Shown here: piece after piece, positions 35,504-48,135 of the stretch
How positions within the stretch are numbered: the first letter of the stretch is position 1
Layout of the letters: each line of letters begins with the position of its first letter
DNA from: Verrucomicrobiota bacterium
GTDB lineage: Bacteria > Verrucomicrobiota > Verrucomicrobiia > Limisphaerales > UBA9464
Direction: 5' to 3'
Assembly (NCBI GenBank): GCA_947454705.1
Contig: CANGKZ010000031.1
Coordinates: forward strand, 1 to 57,820
DNA length: 57,820 bases
Position numbers and translations under genes: made by a program
The notes under the pieces: generated by a model
The model's database searches: none
What the model was told of the DNA's origin: nothing
The model's input: the letters and a program-made list of their open reading frames with translations, nothing else

Positions 35504-37581
35504 GGCGTGCGAACCCGGTAAAAGAAGTTGAGCCAATCAGGCCCCTGCGACTCGGTGAACACCGTCGCATCGGTCCCCGAAAATACGGGAGCAAACGGTC
35601 CGGCCGGCGAGGTGGAACGCTCCACGATGTAGCGAATCCCGGGCGTGGCATTCCATTGGATTTCCACCAACCGCCCCGGCAGGACACGCGCCCGGGCTTC
35701 GATCGGATCCGGCACCGGCTCGGGGATGACCTCCACCCAATTGCGTCCGTCGGACCGCAGCCCGGCACTGGATCTCGCGCCATTCAATTCCGGATGCGCC
35801 TGAAACTCCACCGGAGTCTCTGGGTTCCAAACCTGGGACACCCCGGGGAACGCTTCCGCAGGCATGAGCTGGATGCGGGCCACCAAGTTCGATCGCTCGT
35901 TCCGCACTGACAGAATCTCACCCGGAGCCAACAAGGTCTGCGACGAACCGCTGGCTATTTCCGAAGCCGGCGCGCTGAGAACCGGCAGTCGCGGGACGGA
36001 TCCGGTGAGCGGACCGCCGTACACCACCATCGCATTGGTGGGAGCCAGCAACGCCGATGCGTTGAACCGGTGAATCCGTCGATCTCCGATCCAGAGCGTC
36101 CAGTCTCGCAGGTCCAGGGTGCGATTCCCAAGGTTGATCCACTCCAGAAAGGCGTCCTCCACGATTGGGTTCGCAGCCGGTTCGACGCGATGCAGCGGAT
36201 TGAATCCAGGCCCTCCCGCCTCCACGCCAAGCGACATCCATTCCGAAAGTGCCAGCTGGCTTTCCAGTGGCGTGGGCACGGACACGATCCACTCCACCTT
36301 TGATCCGATCGGCGGCGTGGTCCCCGGCAGGTCGATGAACGCCTCCAGCGTCACGTGTCGCACTCCGCTTCCCTCGGCGTCCGTCGGCGACCAGACCCAG
36401 GTGGCGATCGAAGTCCCCGCCTCGGGAGAATCGACGCTCCAACCGGTTCCCAGCCCTGACGCATTCGCCGAAGGCTGCCAACGGATCGCGCGCCCGGCCG
36501 CGTCGCGCACCATCACCTGACAGTGCAGCGTCTCGCCCACGCGAACCACCTGCTCGGTGAATGCGTTCGTGCCCGCGAGCCCCGGTTGTCGCTGGCCTTC
36601 GATCCACGATCGGATCTGCAACACCGGCGGTGTCGGGACCCGCACCTCAAGCCGCGCAATCTCGCTGAGCACCTGCCCTCCTCCATTGCGAACCCGCACG
36701 CGATACTCCCCCGCATCGGTCAGCGCCACCGCCTTCCACCGGAGCGCGGCGTTGGTTTCTCCGGTCAGTTCCGCCTCCCCACGCAACCACTGATAACTCA
36801 GGGGCCCTGTGCCGGTGGCCACCACCGAGAACCCTGCGCTCAAACCCGCCTCCACCGACACATCGTGCGGCGACTCGGTGATCTGAGGGGGAATCTGCGG
36901 CGCGGCTTTGGGTTCGCCGGTGACCGTCACCATGTCCAACCGCCACGTGCCCGCGGTGCTGTAGCTCGAGCCCGCTTTCACCGCGGTGTAATTGGTCCCG
37001 GAGGAGAAATCGGAAACGATGCGAAACGCGAATCGCGGGTTGTCCGCCACGCCGGTGTAGAACTCCAGCGGAAGCGCGATGCCATTGGTGAACACGCTGT
37101 CCGCTTCGATGAAAAACGGAATCGCTTCGAGAAACGTGGCTCCATCGGTCGCAACCAGAAGCACGCCCTTGCGACTCGCCGTGGCCGTGGAACGGAGGTC
37201 AAATCGGAGGCGGATTTTTTCGTATCCCTGCGTGCTGACTTCGAACTGAACTCCGGCCGAACGCGCCCCCTTCCCCTGCGCGGGAAACTTGGAGAGCGAC
37301 AAGGCCAGATCATTCGTCCCCGCCGGATCGCTGGATCCCGTCCCCGCGGAGAACGATGCCCCAAGCCCACCTAGCACCGTTGCCACACCCGCCCCCGCGG
37401 AGGTCGCGGGGTGATTGGTGTCCGAGGTCGAATTGAAATTCCACTCGGCCAACACCGCCGCCGTGGCGGTTCCCGGTTTCAATCCATGCAGCACCATCAA
37501 CAGCAGGATCGCATGCCGGATCCCTCCACGTTTCACCGCATTCCATGCCGCATTCCACGCCGCCGCAACTCCGGTTCCCAT
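35500..37581 (-). CDS. Secreted protein with Ig-like and lamin-tail domains
   Basis: A 693-residue exported protein with a signal segment around residues 22-42 ([13 protein letters not shown]...ATA). An N-terminal beta-rich domain is followed by an Ig-like domain at about 235-320 ([20 protein letters not shown] with [11 protein letters not shown] and [11 protein letters not shown]). A lamin-tail domain lies at about 455-590 ([20 protein letters not shown]). A C-terminal fibronectin-like module common in Verrucomicrobiota ([17 protein letters not shown]) completes it. A role at the cell surface or in extracellular adhesion is likely; no catalytic residues were recognised. The stop overlaps the pseudopilin start. 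Confidence 0.82.
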
Positions 37582-37866
37582 GAAGCACCTCGGTTTGATC
37601 GACTCATGGACACCCGGGAACGTTCCATTCAGACACGCCCGAAGTGTCGTGGTGAAGATGCCGCCCTTGAGCTCTCCAGCCGGACGAGTTCAAAGGTCTG
37701 CGGTCCACTCAGTCGTACCAAACCCCTGGGTCGGTCTCAGCCAACCCCGCCAATGCGACCGCAAACCACACCCCGCGCCGGAAAAACTCAAAGGCAGCGT
37801 GGGACGATAGAATGAAGAAAGAGAATCCGCCTAGTTGTGCGCGGAAGACACAGGGGAAAAATGATA
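37582..37866. other. Gene-free stretch
   Basis: No gene or known RNA is seen in this stretch upstream of the lamin-tail gene and downstream of the Wzz-like gene. It becomes purine-rich near 37810-37860. Promoter elements for the lamin-tail gene should lie here, but none is clear. Confidence 0.4.
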
Positions 37867-37902
37867 CAGCCCTGAACCGCAGGCTAGGCGCTGTTAGGGC
37901 TG
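37867..37902 (-). terminator. Candidate terminator of the PadR/Wzz-like operon
   Basis: Perfect 7-nt arms CAGCCCT (37867-37873) and AGGGCTG (37896-37902) enclose a 22-nt loop. On the minus strand they are followed within a few bases by ATTTTT. It lies 28 nt after the stop of the Wzz-like gene. The long loop makes it a moderate candidate. Confidence 0.45.
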
Positions 37903-37930
37903 CATCGGGGCAATGGATTCGTAAACCGAC

Positions 37931-39445
37931 TCAGGACCTGGCCGCGGCACTTCCCGTGGCCAGGGATGTAGGGGGCGTTGGAGGCGGGGTTCGACGCGAG
38001 ATCGCGAGGACGATCATCAACACCAGCCCGGCAAGGCCACCGAGCCCAACACATAAAGCGATGTTCATTGGGCGATTGGGTCCGACCGGTGCATTGCTTC
38101 CGCCACCTGAATCGATGATTTCCAGATCGGGCAACACCGCCCTCAAGCGCGACAACTCCAATTCCTGGTTCGCCAGAGCGTCAACCACAGCTCGAATCCT
38201 CGACTCCTCGTCGATCAATCGCTTCTCCTCATTCGCGACGGCGGTCGATTCCAATTCTGATTCCTTTGCAGCCTCCAGAGACTTGACCATCGCTGCGATT
38301 TTCCGATCGAGCTGCAGCAATTGCTCATCGCGGCTGCTCTCCACCAACTCGTTCAACGCCTTCAGGTCGGCACGCTTCAGACCCAACTCGGTCTTGAGTC
38401 GCGCATCGTCGGGAGCCACGGCCAGCCGGTTCTCCAGTTTTCGGATTTCAAACTGGAGCTCGAACATCGGATTCGTGGAGGTGGCAGGGCCCAAGCGGAT
38501 CTTTCGAGACTCCTCCAGTTGAGTCTTCTCCTGCAGCAAGGCTTCGTACGCCGCTTGCTTGGACGCAAATTCCTGATGCTTGACGGAGGGGATGGAACTT
38601 CCGTTTTTTCGGCGGAATTCATCCAACGCCTGCGAGGCCTGCTCCAACTTGCGCTGGAAGGTCAGGATCTGCTGGGTGTTGGCCGCCTGCGAATTGCTCA
38701 ACTGCCCGCTGAGTTGCCGACTGTAGAACTCCACAAACTCATGCGCCCAGGCGACCGCAAACTCCCGGGCTTCGAGCCAGTCGAGTCCCTCCACCGACAT
38801 TAGGAAGGTATTCCCGGGACCCTGGCGTGCGCTGAGCGCGGGACGCCACAATGCATTGGTTCTTCCCGGCGCCGCATGACTCTCCGCGAGTTTCATTCGA
38901 ACACGTTGCAAGACCACATCCTGCACCATCTGGCTCAGAATTGAGTCGGGCGTCATGGACGATGTCTGCACGAGCCCCTTGCCACCCGCCTCTCGGGTTA
39001 CGAAGTGCAGCGTGGAAGAAGCGCGATACCGATTCGGCAGGCGGGCATTGATGGCGGCCCCGACCAATCCCGATACAACGGCACAGATCGGGATCCACCG
39101 CCATGGCAGAAGACGTGCAGGGGTGTTTGGCATGACGGAATTCACGGAAGGACGCGCCGGCGTCTGGGTTGAGCGTTGAAACCAAGTTCGCATGGCACGC
39201 CAGTGCTCGCGCGGAAGGGAAGTGACGGAATCCATCACCGCCCTGCCCCACAATCCGAGCAGCGCACCGCGCTCTGGCGAATCGAGCGCCTCGCGGACCT
39301 GGTCGCGAAAAACTTGGAGCATCGGCTCCTCGTACTCGGCGCGGAAGGAAGCGGGATAAAGCCGGGTGACGCGACGAAACCAAGCCGCATGTCGGCGAAC
39401 CCGCTCGCGTCGTGCTTCGCCGGATGGAAGTGAGGTGGGGTTCAT
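37931..39445 (-). CDS. Wzz/GumC-like chain-length protein with permease-prefix-like N-terminus
   Basis: A 504-residue protein. A cytoplasmic N-terminus with RLYPASFRAEYEEPMLQVFR (about 28-47) resembles the short prefix found on PadR-linked permeases. A first membrane helix (115-133), a periplasmic Wzz-like domain, a long coiled coil (about 255-440) and a second membrane helix (461-483) follow, the last preceded by the Pro-rich NAPVGPNRPMN typical of polysaccharide co-polymerases. The Tyr-kinase domain of BY-kinases is absent. Its ATG overlaps the padR-type stop (ATGA), so the two are co-translated. Confidence 0.78.
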   Translation of the reverse strand: MNPTSLPSGEARRERVRRHAAWFRRVTRLYPASFRAEYEEPMLQVFRDQVREALDSPERGALLGLWGRAVMDSVTSLPREHWRAMRTWFQRSTQTPARPSVNSVMPNTPARLLPWRWIPICAVVSGLVGAAINARLPNRYRASSTLHFVTREAGGKGLVQTSSMTPDSILSQMVQDVVLQRVRMKLAESHAAPGRTNALWRPALSARQGPGNTFLMSVEGLDWLEAREFAVAWAHEFVEFYSRQLSGQLSNSQAANTQQILTFQRKLEQASQALDEFRRKNGSSIPSVKHQEFASKQAAYEALLQEKTQLEESRKIRLGPATSTNPMFELQFEIRKLENRLAVAPDDARLKTELGLKRADLKALNELVESSRDEQLLQLDRKIAAMVKSLEAAKESELESTAVANEEKRLIDEESRIRAVVDALANQELELSRLRAVLPDLEIIDSGGGSNAPVGPNRPMNIALCVGLGGLAGLVLMIVLAISRRTPPPTPPTSLATGSAAARS

Positions 39446-39849
39446 GCGGGGGAAGGAAATGCGCCGCGTCGTCCACCCAGGCCCCGGCGTGTCGCGGCGC
39501 GGACGATTCGCGCCATGCGCTCCGTTTCCGCCGTCGCCACCCGGCCTCCCTGCGCGGTGAGCTTGTAATAGCGCCGACGCTCCTCGCCCGGCTCGGGATC
39601 CGGCCGCTCGCCGGCCTCGGCGATCAGCCCCGCTTCCAGCATGCGCTTCAGCGTTCCGTACAAGGTGCCCGGCCCCATGCGCACCGCCCCGTCGGTGGTC
39701 TCCATCACATCCTTCATGATGGCGTAGCCGTGCTTCTCCCCTTCCGCCAGGGCTACCAGAATCTGGTACACCGCAGGAGTCAGCGGCCCGGCAAAATCCG
39801 GATCCGCCCCCGGCGGGGGAGAGGACTGGGAAGGGTGGTCGGCTTTCAT
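39442..39849 (-). CDS. PadR family transcriptional regulator
   Basis: A 135-residue winged-helix repressor of the PadR family. It has LTPAVYQILVALAEGEKHGYAI, GPGTLYGTLKRMLEAGLI and EERRRYYKLTAQGGRV. ATG 39849 follows GAGGAG by 4 nt; the longer frame to 40059 runs into the upstream repeat. A perfect inverted repeat (39880-39898) lies 31-49 nt upstream, consistent with autoregulation. The stop overlaps the Wzz-like gene start, so it probably controls that gene too. Confidence 0.92.
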   Translation of the reverse strand: MKADHPSQSSPPPGADPDFAGPLTPAVYQILVALAEGEKHGYAIMKDVMETTDGAVRMGPGTLYGTLKRMLEAGLIAEAGERPDPEPGEERRRYYKLTAQGGRVATAETERMARIVRAATRRGLGGRRGAFPSPA

Positions 39850-39879
39850 ACGTCTCCTCGGCTCTGCATCCGCAATGGA

Positions 39880-39898
39880 TATATCCGTCACGGATATA
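39880..39898 (-). promoter_or_regulatory. Probable PadR operator
   Basis: TATATCCG-TCA-CGGATATA is a perfect 8-nt inverted repeat with a 3-nt spacer, 31-49 nt upstream of the padR-type start codon. It is strikingly AT-rich for this genome. Its position and symmetry fit binding of a dimeric winged-helix repressor. Not proven. Confidence 0.7.
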
Positions 39899-39937
39899 GT
39901 CAAATTCAAAAACCGTTTTTGGTTCCCCTCCTTCTGC

Positions 39938-40117
39938 GTTGCCGCCGCCGGAAGAAGGCGGATCACCCGAAGCCGTGAAGTCATCCGCCCTCCATTGGCA
40001 CGGACGGAGGCAACCCGGTCGCCCGATGCGCGGGATCCGCTGGAACCCGGCAACCCCAATCAGGGAACGGACGCCTTCAAACGCCCGTCTGATCCGCCTC
40101 GTTCCCTCGGCGGCTAC
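39938..40117. repeat. 180-bp element with inverted ends, copy 1
   Basis: The ends at 39938-39965 and 40090-40117 are imperfect 28-nt inverted repeats sharing the cores GCCGCCG, GGAA and AGGCGGATCA. It matches copy 2 (40165-40344) with about 14 mismatches and no gap by eye. Flanking similarity extends outward to 39917 and 40119. No conserved reading frame was recognised. Confidence 0.8.
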
Positions 40118-40164
40118 AAAACGCCGGGCCCATCCACCTCCGATTTTGGTTTCCCTCCTTCCGC

Positions 40165-40344
40165 GTAGCCGCCGCCGGAAGAAGGCGGATCACCCGAGGC
40201 AGTGAAGTGGTCCGAACTCCATTGGCACGGACGGAGGCAACCTGGTCACCCGATGCGCGGGATCCGCTGGAACCCGGCAACCCCAATCCAGCAACGGGCG
40301 CCTTCAAAAGCCCGTCTGATCCGCCTCGTTCCCTCGGCGGCTAC
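40165..40344. repeat. 180-bp element with inverted ends, copy 2
   Basis: The ends 40165-40192 and 40317-40344 pair as GTAGCCGCCG...AGGCGGATCA with the same inverted. It lies exactly 227 nt after copy 1. The extended match is 40144-40346. The two copies sit between the PadR operator region and the asd terminator. It could be a small non-autonomous mobile element or an extragenic structured repeat. Confidence 0.8.
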
Positions 40345-40435
40345 AACAGGAACAGCAACGTCGAATCGGCGTTTCGCATTCCATTCTCCGCGCCTCTGCG
40401 TCTCTGCGGTTCTCTTGATCTCTCTCGGGAAAAAC

Positions 40436-40482
40436 AAAACACCCGCGGGCTCCGGTACGACCGGATTCCCGCGGGTGTTTTT
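40436..40482 (-). terminator. Rho-independent terminator of asd
   Basis: A strong stem of AACACCCGCGGG (40438-40449) and CCCGCGGGTGTT (40468-40479), with a further CCGG/CCGG pairing possible in the loop. On the minus strand it is followed by TTTGTTTTT. It starts 26 nt after the asd stop. Confidence 0.88.
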
Positions 40483-40507: not shown

Positions 40508-41512
40508 TCAGCGGAGCAGCTCTTCCGCGATCTGAACCGCGTTCAGCGCAGCGCCCTTGAGCAACTGATCGCCCGCGACCCAGAAGCAAAGGCCGTTGTC
40601 CAACGCGCAATCCAGACGGAGCCGTCCCACCGCGCAGTTGTATTTGCCCGAGACGTCGAGGGGCATCGGATACCGCTTGTTGGCGGGATCATCCACCACA
40701 TCGAGCCCGGGGGCGCGAGAGAGCACTTCGCGTGCGGCTTCCACGCTCACCGGCTTCTCGAACTCGGCGCTCACCGCCACCGAGTGCGCACGGAACACCG
40801 GAACACGCACGCAGGTCACCGAAGCGCGGAAGCCCGGATGATGCATGATCTTGCGTCCCTCGTTCTCCATCTTCATCTCCTCCTTCGTGTACCCGGAGGG
40901 CAGGAAGGAATCGACGTGAGGCAACACGTTGAAGGCGATCTGGTGCGGATACACCTCCAGGGTGCGGGGCGTGCCGGCGACGTACTCGCGGACCTGTCGT
41001 TCGAGCTCGTCCACCGCCTTGGCGCCGGTTCCCGACACGGCCTGGTAGCTCGACGCAAACACGCGGCGAACTCCGAAGGCCTGATGCAGCGGATACAGCG
41101 CCATCAGCGTGATCACCGTGGTGCAGTTCGGGTTGGCGAGGATGCCCTTGTGGAGCTTCACGTCGCCCGGATTGATTTCCGGAACCACCAGGGGAACGGA
41201 ATCATCCATGCGGAAGGCGGAGGAATTATCCACCACCACGCACCCGGCCGCGGCGGCGATGGGCGCGAATTCGCGGGAGATCGAACCGCCGGCGCTGAAC
41301 AACGCGATGTCGATGCCCTTGAAGGAATCGCGCGTCAGTTCGGTGACGGTGTGTTCAACGCCCTTGAATTTGAGGCGGCGGCCGACCGAGCGGGCCGAGG
41401 CTAGGAGTGTGAGTTTGCCCACCGGGAAGTTTCGCTTCTCGAGGGTTTCGATCATTTCCACGCCGACGGCGCCTGTGGCGCCGACGACGGCCACGTGCGG
41501 AGTGCGATTCAT
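40508..41512 (-). CDS. asd: Aspartate-semialdehyde dehydrogenase
   Basis: A 334-residue enzyme that reduces aspartyl phosphate to the semialdehyde, the branch point to lysine/diaminopimelate, threonine and methionine. It shows the NADP-binding VAVVGATGAVGVEMI, the active-site Cys130 in LANPNCTT, SSYQAVSGTGAKAVDEL and VPVFRAHSVAVSAEFEKPVS. It is a single-gene unit with its own terminator. hom and thrC of the same pathway lie 13 kb to the right; lysC and thrB are not in the window. Confidence 0.96.
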   Translation of the reverse strand: MNRTPHVAVVGATGAVGVEMIETLEKRNFPVGKLTLLASARSVGRRLKFKGVEHTVTELTRDSFKGIDIALFSAGGSISREFAPIAAAAGCVVVDNSSAFRMDDSVPLVVPEINPGDVKLHKGILANPNCTTVITLMALYPLHQAFGVRRVFASSYQAVSGTGAKAVDELERQVREYVAGTPRTLEVYPHQIAFNVLPHVDSFLPSGYTKEEMKMENEGRKIMHHPGFRASVTCVRVPVFRAHSVAVSAEFEKPVSVEAAREVLSRAPGLDVVDDPANKRYPMPLDVSGKYNCAVGRLRLDCALDNGLCFWVAGDQLLKGAALNAVQIAEELLR

Positions 41513-43985: not shown

Positions 43986-44003
43986 AAATCGGCAGCGCCC
44001 CAC

Positions 44004-44031
44004 TTTGGACTTTGGACCTCGGACTTTGGAC
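44004..44031. repeat. Heptamer repeat TTTGGAC
   Basis: Four units read TTTGGAC, TTTGGAC, CTCGGAC, TTTGGAC. This is the complement of the GTCCAAA tract at 48101-48135. Confidence 0.8.
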
Positions 44032-46996: not shown

Positions 46997-48100
46997 ATGA
47001 ACTCCACAGCCAAGCCCACTCCACCCCCCACCGTGTTCTCCCCCGTTCAGCTCGGGGCCCTCACCCTGCCCAACCGGATCCTGATGGCGCCGCTGACGCG
47101 CTGCCGCGCCGAAGCCGGAAACGTTCCGGGACCGCTCAACGCCGAGTACTACGGTCAGCGCGCGTCGGCAGGACTGATCATTGCCGAAGCCACTTCGGTG
47201 TCTCCTCGCGGATTCGGCTATCCCAACACTCCGGGCATTTTCACCGAGGCGCAGGTGGCGGGATGGAAACTCGTCACCAACCGCGTGCACGCTGCCGGCG
47301 GACGCATGTTTCTTCAGCTCTGGCACGTGGGGCGGATCTCGCATCCGTCCTATCAACCCAACGGCGACCTGCCCATCGCCCCTTCGGCCATCGTGGCGCG
47401 CGGCAAGGTGTTCACCGGCACCGCCATGGCCGACTACGTCACTCCCAGGGCGCTCGAACTCTCCGAAATTCCCGCAATCATCGAGGAATACCGCCACGGG
47501 GCCAGGCTTGCGCGCGAGGCCGGTTTTGACGGCGTTGAAATCCACAACGCCAACGGCTACCTGCTCGATCAATTCCTCCGCGACGGCACCAACACCCGCA
47601 CCGATCGCTACGGCGGCTCGGTGGCCAATCGCGCACGACTCTCCCTCGAAGTGACCGAAGCCGTGGTGTCGGTGTGGGGCGCAGACCGCGTCGGCATCCG
47701 ACTCTCCCCCGGCGGCGTGTTCAACGACATGCAGGACTCCAATCCGTTGGAAACCTTCGGCCACCTCCTTCGCGAACTAAGCCCAATGGGCCTGGCCTAC
47801 GCGCACATCACCCGCGTCACCGCGCAAGACATCGCGCACGGGGCCCGCGACGGCGTAGGACCGAAGGAACTGCGCTCGCAATTCCGCGGACCCGTCATCA
47901 CGGCCGGTGGATTCGGATTGAAATCCGGGAATCAAGCCCTGGCCGAAGGCTGGGCCGATGCCATTGCCTACGGCGTCCCCTTCCTGGCCAACCCCGATCT
48001 CCCCAAGCGTTTCAAAACGGGTGCACCGCTCAACTCCCCCGACGAATCCACCTTCTACGCCCCCGGCGCGAAGGGCTATACCGATTACCCGGCTCTGTAA
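46997..48100 (+). CDS. Old Yellow Enzyme family ene-reductase (NemA-like)
   Basis: A 367-residue FMN-dependent NAD(P)H oxidoreductase. It has LPNRILMAPLTRCRA, FLQLWHVGRISHPSYQP, the substrate-binding pair His183/Asn186 in EIHNANGYLLDQFL, FLRDGTNTRTDRYGGS and the C-terminal ITAGGFGL. This family reduces activated C=C bonds and nitro compounds and detoxifies reactive electrophiles. It is the second gene after the TetR regulator and presumably under its operator. A GTCCAAA heptamer tract begins directly after the TAA. Confidence 0.94.
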   Translation: MNSTAKPTPPPTVFSPVQLGALTLPNRILMAPLTRCRAEAGNVPGPLNAEYYGQRASAGLIIAEATSVSPRGFGYPNTPGIFTEAQVAGWKLVTNRVHAAGGRMFLQLWHVGRISHPSYQPNGDLPIAPSAIVARGKVFTGTAMADYVTPRALELSEIPAIIEEYRHGARLAREAGFDGVEIHNANGYLLDQFLRDGTNTRTDRYGGSVANRARLSLEVTEAVVSVWGADRVGIRLSPGGVFNDMQDSNPLETFGHLLRELSPMGLAYAHITRVTAQDIAHGARDGVGPKELRSQFRGPVITAGGFGLKSGNQALAEGWADAIAYGVPFLANPDLPKRFKTGAPLNSPDESTFYAPGAKGYTDYPAL

Positions 48101-48135
48101 GTCCAAAGTCCAAAGTCCAAAGCTCAAACGCCAAA
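48101..48135. repeat. Heptamer repeat GTCCAAA
   Basis: Five 7-nt units read GTCCAAA three times, then GCTCAAA and CGCCAAA. The tract starts immediately after the ene-reductase stop codon. Confidence 0.85.

Follow-up and report, generated by a model that had tools for sequence, protein, structure and literature searches.

The two 180-nt elements situated between asd and a padR-like gene are very probably head-to-head GTAG-REP dimers (REPIN/BIME), i.e., non-autonomous elements that were spread by a RAYT and that have been duplicated in tandem at this locus. This identification is based on the hairpin structure of their ends, their dispersal over the genome, the covariation of the hairpin stems, and the existence in relatives of a RAYT flanked by hairpins of this loop type. 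It is well supported that the elements belong to a known class and represent a new branch within it.

Features are listed in Table 1, with coordinates in the window, which is the whole stretch of 57,820 nt that was analyzed. The two copies align over 180 nt with 14 mismatches, no gap and an offset of 227 nt, just as the initial annotation had described them. Their similarity extends over a unit of 207 nt, with 17 mismatches, that takes in ca. 25 nt of left flank; of the limits first given for this similarity (39917–40346), the right one is accurate and the left one reaches slightly further, to 39913. The inverted ends of 28 nt noticed at that time are real and correspond to two REPs per copy, although the left tag of copy 1 is GTTG and not GTAG. 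The inner box of copy 1 has a left partner, ATTGG, at 39994–39998, and in copy 2 the box and its left partner are at 40281–40287 and 40221–40225, respectively. We also detected inverted arms of 50 nt, 70–74% complementary, which reflect the conserved half-element showing through. When folded as DNA and compared with shuffled sequences, copy 1 had z = -3.02 and copy 2 had z = -4.37 (0/200 shuffles in both cases). The window contains no further unit with the exact CCGCC/GGCGG stem and a 10-nt loop, its Rfam matches at the gathering score are 5S rRNA and tRNA only, with none on the elements, and a search of plasmid and phage collections retrieved nothing matching 39917–40346. Upstream of padR, at 39868–39895, there is a palindrome with ATATCCGTCACGGATAT that could be a PadR operator. 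Short tandem runs of the 7-nt sequence GGACTTT are situated at positions 44000–44029 and 48096–48125 of the window, and are seen beside other repeats of the same genome as well.

Table 1. Features of the locus with the two REP dimers, and the RAYT relative encoded elsewhere in the genome.
Feature	Coordinates	Strand	Remarks
First downstream gene, encoding a padR-like regulator	39442..39849	-	Pfam PF03551, 2.8e-16
Tandem-duplicated unit, 207 nt	39913..40346 (39913-40119 + 40140-40346)	.	227 nt start-to-start
REP dimer, copy 1	39938..40117	.	Head-to-head, tags outward, L-type + R-type, 180 nt
L-type REP of copy 1	39938..39965	+	Tag mutated to GTTG
Inner box CCCCAAT (other strand ATTGGGG), copy 1	40054..40060	-	
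R-type REP of copy 1	40090..40117	-	GTAGCCGCCGAGGGAACGAGGCGGATCA
REP dimer, copy 2	40165..40344	.	Layout as copy 1, 180 nt
L-type REP of copy 2	40165..40192	+	GTAGCCGCCGCCGGAAGAAGGCGGATCA
R-type REP of copy 2	40317..40344	-	
Terminator-like hairpin 3' of asd	40436..40481	.	14-bp perfect stem
asd, aspartate-semialdehyde dehydrogenase, upstream of the elements	40508..41512	-	Pfam PF02774 + PF01118
C15 RAYT relative	G000:C15:69308-69919 (L278:1471-2085)		Open frame, 204 aa

The REP unit of 28 nt consists of GTAG, CCGCC, a 10-nt loop, GGCGG and ATCA, and each copy starts with one such unit on the plus strand and ends with a related unit on the minus strand. There are two types of loop, here named L and R, whose inner pair is C-G in L and G-C in R; this pair closes a four-base loop and is flanked by two mismatched dinucleotides. 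Among the 104 units examined in the own genome, the four-base loop is GGAA or GGGA in 96 and the tag is exactly GTAG in 91; across relatives the four-base loop is GNNA, as fixed by the finder used.

The hairpin stem is maintained by compensatory changes, judging from 42 distinct 24-mers gathered, over partly overlapping loci that total 862 kb, with a finder that fixed tag and loop, left the arms free (pairing was not required) and excluded the L-type loops of the own genome. All six pairs were altered on both sides in this set. The covariation score was 0.503, compared with 0.175 for shuffled and at most 0.112 for slid sequences, and 89.7% of the cells were paired, compared with 68.1% in the shuffles; counts of shuffles are not probabilities here, because the 24-mers are related to each other. 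The number of pair types, reached by 63 of 500 shuffles, is a weak measure, and pair 8-21 was unpaired in 12 of the 42 24-mers. Within one order, the hairpin loop is shared, and the stems vary and covary.

The genome (5.45 Mb in 80 contigs, a 95.7% complete draft) contains 104 REP units with up to three mismatches, compared with a single one for the reversed pattern, so that the further copies anticipated by the initial annotation do exist. The units examined, also 104, were those in the loci fetched, of which 101 have up to three mismatches and three have four; about three places of the genome scan are thus outside the examined set. Twenty-two head-to-head dimers with outward tags, 112–213 nt long, are formed by 44 of these units, two of the dimers, both in C24, including units with four mismatches. 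Dimers were mostly of L+R composition (18), the remaining four being R+R and none L+L, and the 30 adjacent pairs separated by up to 300 nt comprised 22 with tags outward, four with tags inward and four in tandem. In 80 of the 104 REPs, an exact ATTGGG occurs 56–60 nt inward from the tag. A rough codon model classed 103 of the 104 units as non-coding-like, compared with 209 of 400 random positions in the repeat-bearing loci. The elements are thus dispersed repeats without genes, duplicated next to the padR/Wzz-like operon, as initially annotated.

The tag is preceded by a pyrimidine at positions -1, -4 and -5 in 95, 93 and 91% of the cases, respectively (n = 102). The cut site of TnpA_REP from E. 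coli is a CT dinucleotide, and this dinucleotide appears within 8 nt upstream of the tag in 68 of 102 units of the own genome, compared with a background of 0.30, but in only 31 of 77 in relatives. The full-length copies most similar to the pair in the window are 69–71% identical; there is no near twin elsewhere that would indicate recent transposition.

We searched for transposases with Pfam Y1_Tnp, with the RAYT model NF047646 and with the RAYT protein of a relative, G014, as query. The gene for the latter (L268/L271) has on both sides dimers of the own-type REP, alike in stem and loop type; the TAG within the tag of the downstream REP serves as its stop codon (L268:1310–1312). The G014 protein matches NF047646 (REP_Tyr_transpos) with 1.9e-17 and 63.5 bits, under the model cut-off of 80, and the sole solved structure that it matched was PDB 4er8, TnpA_REP (1.1e-4). 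It carries HLH and Y---NP, which is the signature of class 2 RAYTs (PMC6006769). With this protein as query, relatives were identified in 11 of 58 genomes, including the own genome. The RAYTs of G018, G054 and G043 have on both sides hairpins with the own loop type and other stems, and in G004, from the same genus, a RAYT fragment at a contig edge is accompanied by a dimer with the own stem on its sole readable side. A transposase gene with like ends, the other element looked for after the initial annotation, is thus present in relatives. The association is not universal: eight RAYTs, that of G014 counted, have at least 54% identity to the latter, and the own loop type was missing from three of them, with nearby GTAG hairpins differing in sequence at L272 and L273 and no inverted repeat found nearby at L276.

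The own-type REP, at up to five substitutions, was absent from the flanks of 50 Y1 loci (L073–L121 and L031). Among the 50 RAYT loci L221–L270, several of them fetched twice from one place, it occurs on both sides only at L268, and L266 has one related hairpin. A loose hairpin gave seven matches over 98 Y1/RAYT loci (L073–L121 and L221–L270, minus L268). Locus L102 (1249–2404, G007:C204) contains a RAYT-like gene of 357 aa flanked by inverted repeats with GGGGTCAG, which fit the GGGGWSAS motif of TIR-associated transposases (PMC3733652).

The MITE-like nature initially proposed for the elements holds in that they are dispersed and gene-less, but not in the sense of a classical MITE. A classical MITE is bordered by target-site duplications, and its terminal inverted repeats are those of a DDE-type IS. 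A deletion derivative of such an IS, ending in the 28-nt terminal inverted repeats, would likewise be short, devoid of genes, dispersed and with inverted ends. However, none of the 22 dimers showed a target-site duplication (exact direct repeat of 2–10 nt at the borders), contrary to the flanking duplications considered in the initial annotation, and 60 of the 104 examined ends are outside simple dimers. Because, in addition, each end is itself a GTAG-tagged, covarying hairpin and the transposase with such ends found in relatives by the Y1/RAYT searches is a Y1/HUH RAYT and not a DDE enzyme, we consider a classical MITE extremely improbable.

Search of the own genome with Pfam Y1_Tnp yielded one gene only, in C26, which is IS200-like (NF033573 above cut-off) and has no REP flank; a near-perfect 29-nt inverted repeat with CCCAGGCCTTCAGGCCTGGG adjoins it (L031:1984–2081). 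The possibility that the genome is devoid of RAYTs was nevertheless rejected, because NF047646 identified RAYTs in C20 (L252:469–1038; 84.1 bits, above cut-off) and C30 (L251:989–1465; 77.5 bits, just under cut-off), and the G014 protein identified a third in C15. The C20 and C30 RAYTs retain the HUH motif and the tyrosine, and their flanks carry copies of two different repeat families, one for each gene (AGTGCGGCGGGAAGCG... for C20 and GTGGAGGGCGTGGTTCCACC... for C30). Two RAYTs that keep HUH and tyrosine, one that is apparently dead, and three repeat families coexist in the genome.

The latter, C15, is the only RAYT of the G014 clade found in this 95.7% complete draft, with 35% identity to the G014 protein. 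Both histidines of HUH, the catalytic tyrosine and the next asparagine are replaced (PDHLHLL to PDQLQFL, and YILANP to ALMQAP), and from these changes the protein appears to be catalytically dead. Its surroundings contain no GTAG hairpin and no inverted repeat. As a query, it retrieved proteins with 28–37% identity from eight other genomes, all of them already found with the G014 protein, and no clear orthologue among them. In the codons aligned with the G014 gene conservation is highest at the second position (0.63, vs. 0.45 and 0.38), and a simulation of neutral drift to equal nucleotide identity predicted 4.7 stops in 171 codons, with a probability of ca. 0.007 of having none; this test cannot date the divergence, most of which may precede the catalytic loss. 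The AlphaFold model of the protein is poor (pLDDT 48). Its membership in the clade suggests that C15 may once have served the own REP. That the dead enzyme has been kept as a REP-binding protein, an ex-mobilizer with the ca. 100 REPs as binding sites, is conceivable but quite doubtful; if true, C15 and the REPs would make up a repeat-based regulon or a chromosome-organizing system.

The REPs outside simple dimers have a different neighborhood from the rest. Of these 60 units, 32 are situated within 260 nt of the second repeat family, that flanking the C20 RAYT on both sides, compared with none of the 44 units in dimers; the other 28 are neither in dimers nor near this family. This distribution agrees with the GTAG REPs being now passengers of the C20-associated family, whose RAYT is accompanied by its repeat. 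Nevertheless, co-occurrence in mosaics is no proof of co-mobilization, the composites could just as well have arisen long ago, when one of the repeats inserted into the other, and the copies in the window are plain dimers without the C20-flanking repeat, so we judge this explanation unlikely.

The own form of the REP, with up to two mismatches, is present in 10 of 58 genomes, including the own genome, with 35 units in G007, 19 in G001, eight in G030, six in G014 and one or two in the remainder. A form with a freer stem and GT in the loop occurs in 19 of 33 genomes, with none for the reversed control, and gives none in the own genome, whose loops do not fit it. In a sample of 20 stretches and four REPtron loci, the dimers are 64–86 nt long in G003, G004, G005, G014, G030 and the REPtrons of G018 and G054, and 111–165 nt in G001 and G007, and many other units in the sampled stretches are single. 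A scan of a genome contig collection found the exact motif in two contigs, both from Verrucomicrobia MAGs. Viral contigs include 22 stretches (L314–L335) that match a freer version of the GTAG hairpin exactly.

The other 29 asd loci (up to 1.5 kb of flank each) yielded no match to padR or to the Wzz-like gene, which itself has a sub-threshold GNVR match only, and the site was therefore compared through the asd side and the next gene, and through tmk and smpB, where the own genome also has dimers. In the sister species G001 and G007, 382 and 509 nt separate the aligned asd piece from the next piece aligned with the window, compared with 2,993 and 3,062 nt for the matching intervals of the own genome, where both dimers are found along with padR and the Wzz-like gene. 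This segment, missing from the sister intervals, is thus specific to the own lineage among the three compared. Some 3 kb of the window (37444–40435) has no aligned counterpart in G001 and G007 in the interval from asd to the gene that follows. In sister species, the own form is absent from those asd, tmk and smpB loci that were readable, only the smpB side being comparable at the last of these. The tmk interval between aligned pieces measures 624 nt in the own genome, 156 nt without any REP in G006, 201 nt in G005, with a 66-nt dimer particular to that genome, and 667 nt with other DNA in G001; in G003, a related hairpin occurs at this locus. Exact insertion points cannot be read, because the intergenic DNA does not align.

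These comparisons bear on whether the repeats are kept for a job at the RNA or chromosome level, such as protection of 3' ends, asd-padR attenuation or protein docking, with mobility being only their history. The predicted RNA fold of copy 2 is strong on both strands (z = -4.81 and -4.63; 0/200 shuffles each), the repeats are intergenic, and related REPs are described as lying mainly 3' of genes and as likely to be transcribed (PMC3733652). In the 95.7% complete draft of the own genome, no intact RAYT of the matching clade was found, which also favors such a role, and counts against our identification. Yet the locus has its own terminator-like hairpin at 40436–40481, and the elements are missing, together with the padR segment, from this locus in both sisters compared, which implies that their position is not conserved. 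We consider this role possible, though less likely than its absence.

The preferred reading, RAYT-spread REP dimers, suggests the following sequence of events. In single-stranded DNA, each end of the element would fold into a hairpin formed by the GTAG tag, a 5-bp stem, two mismatched dinucleotides, and an inner pair closing the GNNA loop. This hairpin would be the type of substrate of a RAYT, a single-strand endonuclease of the HUH/tyrosine type whose gene is situated elsewhere; we infer recognition and cutting of the single strand from the work on TnpA_REP (PMC8266576). Cleavage by the RAYT would have mobilized ancestral REPs and spread them to intergenic sites, presumably at a low rate, as deduced from the work on REPINs (PMC8049555), which ascribes their local duplication to the host replication machinery. 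The dimer would then have been doubled here by ordinary tandem duplication through that machinery, with the ca. 25 nt of left flank copied too. A GTTG tag, the form found at the left end of copy 1, abolished cleavage by the enzyme of S. maltophilia (PMC8266576). At present, the locus would probably be an intergenic structure that moves rarely or not at all, situated between the terminator of asd and the promoter region of padR.

REPINs with a RAYT are said to be the system of Bertels and Rainey. As depicted in PMC8049555, they have in common with the elements described here two inverted REPs, a variable spacer, a RAYT encoded elsewhere, and the occurrence of singlets; some E. coli genomes retain REPINs without a RAYT. 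Unlike in the systems treated there, the sole clade-matching RAYT of the own genome appears to be catalytically dead. With the TnpA_REP and REP of E. coli (PMC8266576; 4er8) the elements share the GTAG tag, a zone of mismatches in the stem, and an HUH and tyrosine nuclease, but the sequences of stem and loop differ.

Di Nocera et al. (2013; PMC3733652) described families of GTAG-tagged REPs, among them those of Opitutus terrae (Verrucomicrobia), in the only treatment of REPs in Verrucomicrobia that we found; most GTAG families described are from gamma-Proteobacteria. Their families share with ours the GTAG tag, a short stem-loop, head-to-head dimers that are mostly heterodimers, tandem clusters including flanking DNA, an intergenic location, the coexistence of several families per genome, and a REP-flanked RAYT, with the REPtron missing at times. 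They differ from ours in the loop, which is here GA-[C/G]-GNNA-[G/C]-GA, with GC-C-GRRA-G-AA for the own L type, and in that the dimers of the own genome are long (112–213 nt), most of them with an inner ATTGGG box. The own REP may yet be identical with one of the 24 families of that paper.

The results add a clear GTAG-REP/RAYT system spanning an order of Verrucomicrobia. RAYTs at least 54% identical that adjoin differing hairpins constitute natural material for the study of RAYT-REP recognition. Of the loose ends, the apparently dead RAYT holds the most interest and, together with the mosaic of three families, adds some interest to the system; because these three families coexist with two RAYTs having HUH and tyrosine and an apparently dead one, the genome could be used to test the persistence, decay or re-use of REPINs after the loss of their enzyme.
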